A stretch of DNA of 64,000 nucleotides from Paludibacter sp. (lineage in GTDB: Bacteria > Bacteroidota > Bacteroidia > Bacteroidales > Paludibacteraceae): NCBI GenBank assembly GCA_010365115.1, contig JAAFGX010000003.1:1-64000 (forward strand), in the 5' to 3' direction. The notes beneath the pieces were generated by a model. It had not been told where the DNA came from and searched no databases. It saw nothing but the letters and a program-made list of their open reading frames with translations. A program made the position numbers and the translations under genes. This document shows positions 14,899 to 61,310 of the stretch, in pieces; the first letter of the stretch is position 1; the number at the start of each line of letters is the position of its first letter.

Positions 14899-15182
14899 TA
14901 TATTTAAGAAATTAATTGTAATTAAATTATTTCAAGACTGATTTAAATACTTCAGAGAAGAAATCGCGGTAAAAATACAAGATTAATTTCAAATTGGAAC
15001 TAAAACATGAATATATTTTAATCAAAGAGTAAATATATTTTCTAAACAGCTATTATACAAAACATAAAGCTTGTTACGAATTGATAGTATTGCGCATTAT
15101 GACCCCTAACCCATTACGGGGAACTATGCAAGCGCTGTCTCCTAATTATTATGAATTATGAATTGTGCATTATCAACATCGT

Positions 15183-49105: not shown

Positions 49106-49202
49106 ACCCCTAGCCCCTAAAATGGTGACTAAGTTAACACTGTTATTTTTATAAAATAAAATATCAAAGACGAATGTAATTTCAAGTCCTTTGGAGTTGG
49201 GT
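49106..49202. repeat. Degenerate element with inverted CCCC-rich termini
   Basis: AAACCCCTAGCCCCTAAAATGGTGACT ... CAAGTCCTTTGGAGTTGGGTT. Confidence 0.55.
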
Positions 49203-49618: not shown

Positions 49619-49712
49619 AACCCTTAACCCTTAAAAGGGAATAAAATTAATATTACTACATTTTTGACATCAAAAACTTCTGCAATCTCTACTTTTGTGG
49701 ATTAAGGAGATT

Positions 49713-54877: not shown

Positions 54878-57520
54878 ATGGAACTCGCAAGCAAGTACAA
54901 TCCAACTGACATCGAATCGAAATGGTATCAATACTGGTTAGAAAATAGATTTTTCAATTCAAAACCTGATGGTCGCGAACCTTATACAATCGTCATTCCA
55001 CCACCAAATGTAACTGGTGTATTGCACATGGGCCACATGCTCAACAATACCATTCAGGATATTTTGGTTCGCCGTGCACGTATGTTGGGCAAAAATGCAT
55101 GTTGGGTTCCCGGAACCGACCATGCATCCATAGCTACAGAAGCAAAAGTGGTTGGAAAACTTGCTGCTGAAGGAATTGCAAAGACAGACCTTACAAGAGA
55201 AGAATTTCTTGAACATGCATGGGAATGGACACACAAACATGGTGGGATTATTTTGGAACAATTGAAAAAACTCGGTGCGTCATGCGATTGGGACCGTACT
55301 GCATTCACCATGGACGAACCGCGTTCCGAAAGCGTTATCAAAGTATTTATCGACATGTACAATAAAGGTCTGATTTACCGTGGCGTACGTATGGTAAATT
55401 GGGATCCAAAAGCATTAACAGCATTATCTGACGAAGAAGTTATTTTTAAAGAACAACAAGGGAAACTGTTCTATCTACGTTATAAAATAGATGCCCCCCA
55501 ACCCCCTGAAGGGGGAGTTGAAGAGCCACAATATGCGGTGATTGCGACTACAAGACCTGAAACAATTTTCGGGGATACAGCTATGTGTATCAACCCAAAT
55601 GATGAGAAAAATAAGTTTCTTCGTGGAAAAAGAGTTTTTGTGCCACTCATTAACCGTTCTATTCCAGTTATTGAGGACGATTATGTGGATGTTGAATTCG
55701 GTACCGGTTGCCTTAAAGTTACTCCAGCACATGATGTAAATGACTATATGTTGGGTGAGAAATATGGTTTAGAATCAATTGATATTTTCAATGACAATGG
55801 AACATTAAATGCACATGGTGAGCAATATGCCGGCATGGATCGTTTTGAAGTTCGCGAACAAATTGTAAAAGATTTAGAAACAGCCGGATTGCTCGAAAAG
55901 ACAGAACCTTACACCAACAAAGTAGGTTTTTCGGAACGTACCGATGCAGTTATTGAACCCAAACTGTCGATGCAATGGTTCATGAAAATGGAAGATTTAG
56001 CTAAGCCGGCTTTGGATGCGGTTATGAGCGATGACATTCAATTGTATCCTGCAAAATTTAAAAATACCTATCGCCATTGGATGGAAAATGTGAAAGATTG
56101 GTGTGTTTCGCGTCAACTATGGTGGGGACACCGCATTCCTGCCTATTTTTTGCCACAAGGAGGTTTAGTTGTTGCTCATTCTAAAGAAGAAGCTTATCAG
56201 AAAGCATTATTAATTGTCGATTATCCAATATCAATTGATGATTTGCGTCAGGACGAAGACTGTCTTGATACATGGTTTTCCTCATGGTTGTGGCCCATCT
56301 CGGTTTTTGATGGTATCAATAATCCTGAAAACGAAGAAATTAAATATTATTACCCAACAAATGATTTAGTAACTGCACCGGAAATCCTGTTTTTCTGGGT
56401 GGCTCGTATGATTATTGCCGGTTATGAATACAGAGGTGAAATGCCGTTTAAGAATGTATATTTAACTGGTATTGTTCGCGATAAACTGGGTCGTAAAATG
56501 TCGAAATCGCTTGGCAACTCGCCAGATCCGCTGGATTTAATAGCTCTTTATGGCGCTGATGCAGTGCGTTTGGGCATGTTGCTTACTTCACCAGCTGGAA
56601 ACGATTTACCTTACGATGACTCTCTTTGTGAACAAGGACGAAACTTCAATAATAAAATATGGAATGCTTTTCGTTTGGTAAAAGGATGGGAAGTAGCGGA
56701 TATTGAACAACCTGAATCCGCACGAATGGCGGTAAAATGGTTTGATGCTCAACTGAATAAAACCTTGCTTGAAATTGATGATTTGTTCACCAAATACCGT
56801 TTATCGGAAGCTTTGATGGCCATTTACAAGTTATTCTGGGACGAGTTCTCGGCCTGGTATTTGGAAATGGCAAAACCTGCTTACCAACAACCCATCGACC
56901 GTATAACTTACGAAGCCACACTTGGCTTTTTCGATTCGTTATTAAAAGTTCTGCATCCATTTATGCCTTTTATTACCGAAGAACTTTGGCAAGCATTGGA
57001 AACTCGCAAAGACGGTGAAAGCATTATGATTGAGTTGCAACCGAAAGCAGTAAAAGTAGACGAAAAACTGATTGTTGAATTTGAAAATGCAAAAGAAATT
57101 ATTGCAGGAATTCGTACTGTTCGTTTGCAAAAAAATATTCCCAACAAAGAAGTATTAAGTTTGCAAATTACCGGCGAACATAAAGCAGGTTTTGATGCTG
57201 TAATTGGAAAATTAGGCAACCTTGAAGCTATAGAAACAGTCAAAGAAAAATCAGCTGGATCTGTTTCATTCTTAGTTGGAACAATTGAATACTCTATTTT
57301 GCTTGGTAGTTTAATCAATATAGAAGAAGAAATTGCCAAAATGGAAGCTGAAATTAAGTATTTTGAAGGCTTTATCGATTCGGTAATGAAAAAACTAGGC
57401 AACGAAAGGTTTGTAGCCAACGCTAAACCGGAAGTGGTGGAAACCGAACGCAAGAAAAAAGCGGATGCGGAAAGTAACATTACTTCGTTAAAAGAGGGAA
57501 TTGCAGGATTGAGGAAATAA
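54878..57520 (+). CDS. valS: valyl-tRNA synthetase
   Basis: [70 protein letters not shown]. Confidence 0.98.
55494..55524. repeat. GC-rich palindromic repeat inside valS
   Basis: CCCCCCAACCCCCTGAAGGGGGAGTTGAAG; translated [11 protein letters not shown] in the listed frame. Confidence 0.75.
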
Positions 57521-61210: not shown

Positions 61211-61310
61211 ACCCCAACCCTCTTCATTTGAAGAGGGAGAAAGAGGAGAAAGAGAACGGAAAACAGTTTTTTTGGAGAGGGAGGAAGAGGGGGACTTAAA
61301 GACGTAGTCA
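61211..61310. repeat. Purine-biased intergenic repeat with CCCTCTTCA/TGAAGAGGG hairpin
   Basis: CCCCAACCCTCTTCATTTGAAGAGGGAGAAAGAGGAGAAAGAG...GGAGAGGGAGGAAGAGGGGGACTT. Confidence 0.6.

Follow-up and report, generated by a model that had tools for sequence, protein, structure and literature searches.

The valyl-tRNA synthetase gene (valS) of Paludibacter sp. contains, in frame, a GC-rich palindrome that is best read as a solo, nuclease-less copy of a REP-like palindrome. It is probably related to homing-type elements that are inserted in frame, are not spliced, and consist of a DUF559 domain with REP-like ends; the palindrome in valS would be a solo derivative of such an element or an insertion of one of its ends. 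The window (the whole stretch of DNA analyzed; 64,000 nucleotides) contained the following features.

54878-57520, + strand: valS, valyl-tRNA synthetase (ValRS), 880 amino acids in an intact frame (Pfam tRNA-synt_1, Anticodon_1, and Val_tRNA-synt_C)
55492-55516, + strand: solo REP-like palindrome TGCCCCCCAACCCCCTGAAGGGGGA in valS, 25 nt (exact and near copies in the genome)
55493-55531, + strand: whole insert, common to genome G002, in place of (E)GEDG of empty alleles (valS alignment and junctions)
55502-55515, no strand assigned: hairpin core CCCCCTGAAGGGGG (direct reading)
15099-15122, no strand assigned: decayed intergenic palindrome of a similar type (direct reading)
49622-49650, no strand assigned: decayed intergenic palindrome of a similar type (direct reading)
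61211-61237, no strand assigned: variant palindrome ACCCCAACCCTCTTCATTTGAAGAGGG, like the CTCACCCC...AACCC type at the metH DUF559 locus (L066) (direct reading)

Residues 1-863 of the window ValRS matched PDB 1gax (E-value of 1.1e-193), and the in-frame position of the palindrome, proposed in a preliminary description of this DNA, was confirmed. Its codons (GCC CCC CAA CCC CCT GAA GGG GGA) are read as APQPPEGG, and the tail GTT GAA GAG CCA CAA completes an insert of 13 residues (ValRS residues 206-218), through which the CP1 linker is longer by 9 residues. AlphaFold2 was used to model ValRS of the window and a ValRS with a DUF559 domain; both models were of low confidence (mean pLDDT of 49 and 51, respectively, with six sequences each), and only hinted that the insert may be a coil between two strands. 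The DNA fold of the hairpin core was weak taken alone: -6.3 kcal/mol with a z of -2.0. The 20-mer with three or fewer mismatches was never reproduced in dinucleotide shuffles of the window, and CCCCTNNAGGGG occurred once in the window versus 0.01 expected. Similar palindromes elsewhere in the window had also been proposed: those at 15099-15122, 49622-49650, and 61211-61237 were recovered as decayed or variant C/G palindromes, while the stretch at 49106-49202 contained at best two decayed halves.

In the genome of the window (G000; 4.79 Mb, 7% contamination), a search for further copies found the core CCCCTNNAGGGG at 134 sites, versus two for the reversed control. These copies, together with the empty sites of relatives (see below), supported the earlier suggestion that a mobile palindrome has been tolerated as a protein insert. 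The 25-mer TGCCCCCCAACCCCCTGAAGGGGGA had an exact copy at one intergenic site (L185, contig C29), and 15 other placements with one or two mismatches in the G000 sequence examined, some of which represent one copy seen in loci that overlap; these near copies included both ends of a DUF559 element in purL (2/25 mismatches with the valS palindrome). The palindromes combine a C-rich head (for example, CCCCYAA) with a hairpin of the form CCCC(Y)..(R)GGGG behind it. Among 50 sites, 12 adjacent pairs were found, every one with its heads outward, and GTAG and CGTC tags near the core were present in only 4 and 2 sites, respectively, unlike in the GTAG/CGTC REP superfamilies (RAYT REPs), where such a tetranucleotide marks one end of the stem.

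The reading frame was surveyed at 86 sites, taken from G000 and a single-contig relative (G016) rather than from all 134. Only six of these were within long ORFs, versus 60% of random positions, and the family is thus mostly extragenic, presumably through selection. Two of the six (L287 and L294) looked like chance or spurious ORFs, and the remaining copies were located in valS, a DNA methylase (L286), and, as an inverted pair, an aldolase/short-chain dehydrogenase (L285). The copies in valS and the methylase, and one of those in L285, used the same frame, APQPP[EK]GG; other open frames were used elsewhere: PLTPEGG in G009 and MPPNPQKGE in purL. Intragenic palindromes may be tolerated when the frame stays open. 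In G016 (L183 and L184), arrays of outward-facing palindrome pairs surrounded successive small ORFs in a cassette-like manner, including a DUF559 gene and a Y1 gene.

The same valS site was compared among 45 genomes: 37 were empty, five carried a solo palindrome, and three carried a DUF559 element. A short linker was, as previously stated, normal among these homologues: empty alleles typically read KIEGEDGYAV at CP1, with a canonical GEDG turn, and the residues of the insert were missing in the alignment rather than encoded by diverged codons. One type of solo insert was common to G000 and G002, another to G028 and G004, and a third was found in G054, from another family of the order. G000 and G002 were not sisters on the valS tree, and their inserts were identical at 36/39 bases versus 33/54 and 11/21 in the flanks, indicating that the history of the insert differs from that of the flanks.

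According to the alignment and junctions, the DUF559 elements of G009, G013, and G025 occupied the site of the insert. Their valS genes contained ~140 extra residues in frame, consisting of a palindrome, a DUF559 domain (Pfam E-value of 2e-35), and an inverted palindrome, and DUF559 elements at this site were found in these three congeners and in other Bacteroidales. Palindromic or nuclease-bearing inserts at this site needed six changes on the valS tree. The DUF559 domain of G009 showed 60-63% identity with those of G013 and G025 (hosts: 84-85%), and a single Paludibacter clade was rejected by the AU test (p = 0.00026). Palindromes were also found elsewhere in this gene. Further palindromic inserts were present at other positions, in both orientations and in a decayed state in G032, and in valS of G013 (L052) the DUF559 element was accompanied by about four more of them, each at another site and in frame. 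Six congeners had a palindrome of a different family, AGTGAGGCCGTCACTGAAAGTGACAGTCTCACT, in frame near residue 755 of valS (L018, L024, L025, L026, L028, and L033).

In G000 itself, the host proteins MetH and PurL both contained a DUF559 domain in frame, bracketed by palindromic ends that were inverted and matched each other. A third, intergenic copy was broken or decayed. Matches to DUF559 were found in 31/40 congeners and 78/148 sampled Bacteroidota. The genomes were mostly metagenome assemblies; the single-contig G016 also has palindromes and DUF559, and a scan of named genomes added 80 DUF559 loci, with cultured isolates among the carriers of embedded elements, such as Flavobacterium amnicola (RecG), Marinilabilia salmonicolor (IleRS), and Dysgonomonas (ValRS). 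In this named-genome set, DUF559 was embedded in long frames in 53 of 82 cases. By Pfam/NCBIfam, the host genes were valS, leuS, ileS, metG, pheT, metH, purL, recG, uvrA, and gmk, and also mazG, miaB, and genes for RNase H, urocanase, a UvrD-like helicase, and an alpha-xylosidase. Across Bacteroidota, the elements were located in linker regions of housekeeping enzymes. Inverted repeats with a score of at least 11 flanked 92% of the elements in valS, 100% in purL, 75% in metH, 58% in leuS, and 62% in ileS, while the value at control positions was 2.8%.

Most recG elements were without flanking inverted repeats: 25 elements of Flavobacteriia (loci among L207-L265, together with L154 and L155) shared one conserved site and had mostly decayed ends. 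Since these elements seem old and look vertically inherited, some copies have probably been domesticated. Several further features of embedded copies were observed. Two DUF559 domains, with separate palindromic ends, were inserted at different sites of a single IleRS frame of 1442 amino acids (L256). In nearly every embedded copy (L066-L276), and in any host gene, the short motif [YF]xT[ATG]xxxx[YW] was located upstream of the DUF559 domain. DUF559 domains were also found inside type I, type ISP, and other restriction-modification proteins (L104, L106, L153, L156, L099, L100, and L132), some with inverted-repeat flanks; those in HsdR and type ISP genes were set aside as possible native fusions.

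When the host gene was used as a label on the tree of 87 DUF559 domains, 10 changes were needed versus 53 after shuffling; the nuclease lineages follow the host gene, as expected of site-specific elements. The purL nucleases formed one clade (98*), while the host PurL tree needed seven changes for seven occupied alleles. All seven of these alleles had MRLTF before the insert, whereas all empty alleles read had M[KNQDR]FVF, with EQADGEK as the canonical turn. Over the 40 bases immediately upstream of the junction, G002 matched the occupied G014 at 38/40 positions (as counted by eye), versus 34/40 for its near relative G011, and the identity between G002 and G011 fell to 0.72 over the first 60 bases downstream of the junction. 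In this one close pair, the pattern suggests an allele replacement centered on the insertion, which would fit gain or loss alike. Together with the MRLTF alleles, it may reflect co-conversion of host sequence next to the element.

The DUF559 profile matched PDB 3r3p (E-value of 1.6e-6), which we take to be the homing endonuclease I-Bth0305I, and 3hrl (E-value of 1e-29). Putative catalytic residues (Glu17, Asp45, Glu56, Asp58, and His62; alignment A1) were kept in about 97% or more of the domains, and dN/dS values of about 0.16-0.32 indicated purifying selection. DUF559 combined features by which a homing endonuclease element may be recognized: a homologue among known homing endonucleases, conserved catalytic residues, and elements that spread horizontally and recur at one and the same site. 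No intein/protein-splicing (Hint) domain was found by Pfam, with only DUF559 between the host domains, and the extra sequence was too little for one; an intein was, therefore, rejected. A group I or II intron was also rejected: there was no Rfam match in six element-bearing loci, and the insert is an open frame.

These results may be brought together in the following mechanism, in which we infer cleavage, mobility, and homing from the pattern of the sequences. An inverted pair of palindromes, with heads outward, forms the ends of a small element with a DUF559 (Vsr/EDxHD-like) endonuclease. The nuclease would cut an empty allele at a conserved target, and the element would be copied in by recombinational repair (homing). 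It would then stay in the host protein without being spliced out, as an additional domain behind Pro/Gly-rich linkers that the palindromes encode, and its survival may be due to ends that allow in-frame read-through. Solo palindromes would be nuclease-less derivatives or independent insertions of one end, found in genes only if the frame is kept. Their origin as a plain core-core deletion of a full element is unlikely, because a head would then remain on either side, and the copy in valS has a single head. It seems rather likely that homing elements of this kind, without splicing, occur phylum-wide in Bacteroidota, with a DUF559/Vsr-like endonuclease, palindromes acting as both DNA ends and peptide linkers, and palindromes of the valS type as their nuclease-less relics or derivatives.

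Other explanations of the palindromes have to be weighed against this mechanism. They may be REPs of the usual kind, mobilized by a Y1 (RAYT) transposase, with the DUF559 genes as passengers that came to be bracketed by REPs. Y1_Tnp proteins were found in 33/40 congeners, the number of palindromes correlated with that of Y1 (rho of 0.63), two genomes with ~100 palindromes (G011 and G026) were without DUF559, and intragenic REPs are known from RAYT systems (PMC3733652). However, the Y1 genes examined in the genus have their own, other palindromes (TCCCCGTAGGGGA, TGGGCTTTAGCCCA, and AGGGGCGTAGCCCT) and not the C-run type, which flanks DUF559; G021 and G033 contained 50-55 palindromes with no Y1 match; and the GTAG/CGTC tags near the core were rare. 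The number of palindromes correlated with that of DUF559 at 0.70, and partial correlations were 0.53 for DUF559 versus 0.40 for Y1. Since the palindrome number tracks DUF559 better with the other controlled, and the examined Y1 genes carry other palindromes, DUF559 is favored, with moderate confidence, as the partner of the C-run palindromes, and movement by Y1 is unlikely. A Y1_Tnp-like HUH domain was also observed in frame in restriction-modification methylase-like frames of ~1230-1340 amino acids (L177 in G017:C10, L178 in G022:C301, and G024:C141); no C-run palindromes were found near these domains.

The DUF559 domains may instead be ancient useful fusions that are vertically inherited, the empty alleles being losses and the palindromic linkers leftovers of the first insertions. 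The recG-DUF559 fusion, which in many Flavobacteriia occupies one site and has decayed ends, and the purifying selection on DUF559 are what would be expected from this, but the occupied valS and purL alleles were scattered over the host trees, the empty alleles had canonical turns (GEDG and EQADGEK), the tree of the valS nucleases conflicted with that of the host, and several types of solo palindrome recurred at one valS site. As an account of the embedded domains in general, we consider it quite improbable. Slippage at the site, or an expansion of low-complexity sequence, with no link to mobile DNA would suit a palindrome as short and GC-rich as that in valS, and is hardly credible in view of its exact 25-nt copy and many near copies elsewhere in the genome, and of the near-identical insert in the non-sister G002. 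Chance or slippage as its origin was ruled out by the shuffles, the exact copy, and the excess of core sites over the control. Homing-type DUF559 elements with REP-like ends are retained as the best reading.

These elements share features with several known systems, and differ from each of them. REPs inside genes, including tRNA synthetase and DNA repair genes, have been described previously (PMC3733652; Di Nocera et al. 2013). Like the Rickettsia palindromic elements (RPE) and intragenic REPs, the palindromes in this study occur in high copy number, are mostly extragenic, and are found in frame in a conserved housekeeping gene that lacks them in relatives. They differ in being mostly without the GTAG/CGTC tag, in sequence and phylum, and in also bracketing the gene of a nuclease, which is in turn embedded in host proteins. 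The comparison with RPE made in the preliminary description was a good analogy, with no membership in that class being claimed. The RAYT/REP system (REPtron and REPIN) similarly has a nuclease gene with inverted palindromes, together with solo copies and heads-outward pairs genome-wide; on the other hand, the nuclease in the present elements is DUF559 (PD-(D/E)XK/Vsr-like) and not a HUH Y1 transposase, and is in frame in essential genes. The EDxHD (Vsr-like) homing endonuclease I-Bth0305I (PDB 3r3p) resembles them in its nuclease domain, which is homologous, in having lineages tied to particular sites of conserved genes, and, as it appears, in the exchange of flanks. 3r3p was deposited as a mobile intron protein, whereas no intron or intein was detected here and the host protein keeps the nuclease as one of its domains. 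Inteins also place a nuclease in frame in conserved housekeeping proteins at recurrent sites, but no splicing domain was matched in the present elements.

The WHO elements of yeast are eukaryotic, and their nuclease lineage is other than DUF559. They are homing-type nuclease elements that have been described as unorthodox (PMC7282813). VsrA of Caulobacter, which has been investigated as a Vsr-like nuclease, contains DUF559, and gene deletion showed that it triggers a DNA damage response in vivo (PMC12907096); it differs in being a stand-alone gene with a proposed role in mismatch repair. By title or abstract, the open-access papers mentioning DUF559 in the collection searched gave no sign of DUF559-palindrome elements or of DUF559 being inserted in frame in housekeeping proteins.

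Annotators should be aware that many of the proteins labeled as DUF559-containing are housekeeping enzymes that have been invaded. With the finding, the question of what moves REP-like palindromes can also be put to the test in genomes where the Y1 transposases are associated with other repeats. The usual view is that a homing endonuclease in a coding gene requires an intron or intein in order to spare the host, while the nuclease of these elements appears to be permanently carried in essential enzymes (tRNA synthetases, MetH, PurL, RecG, and UvrA). If true, the parasite would have solved its problem in a new way, which would also supply proteins with new domains and linkers and may be how coding palindromes of the Rickettsia type arose.
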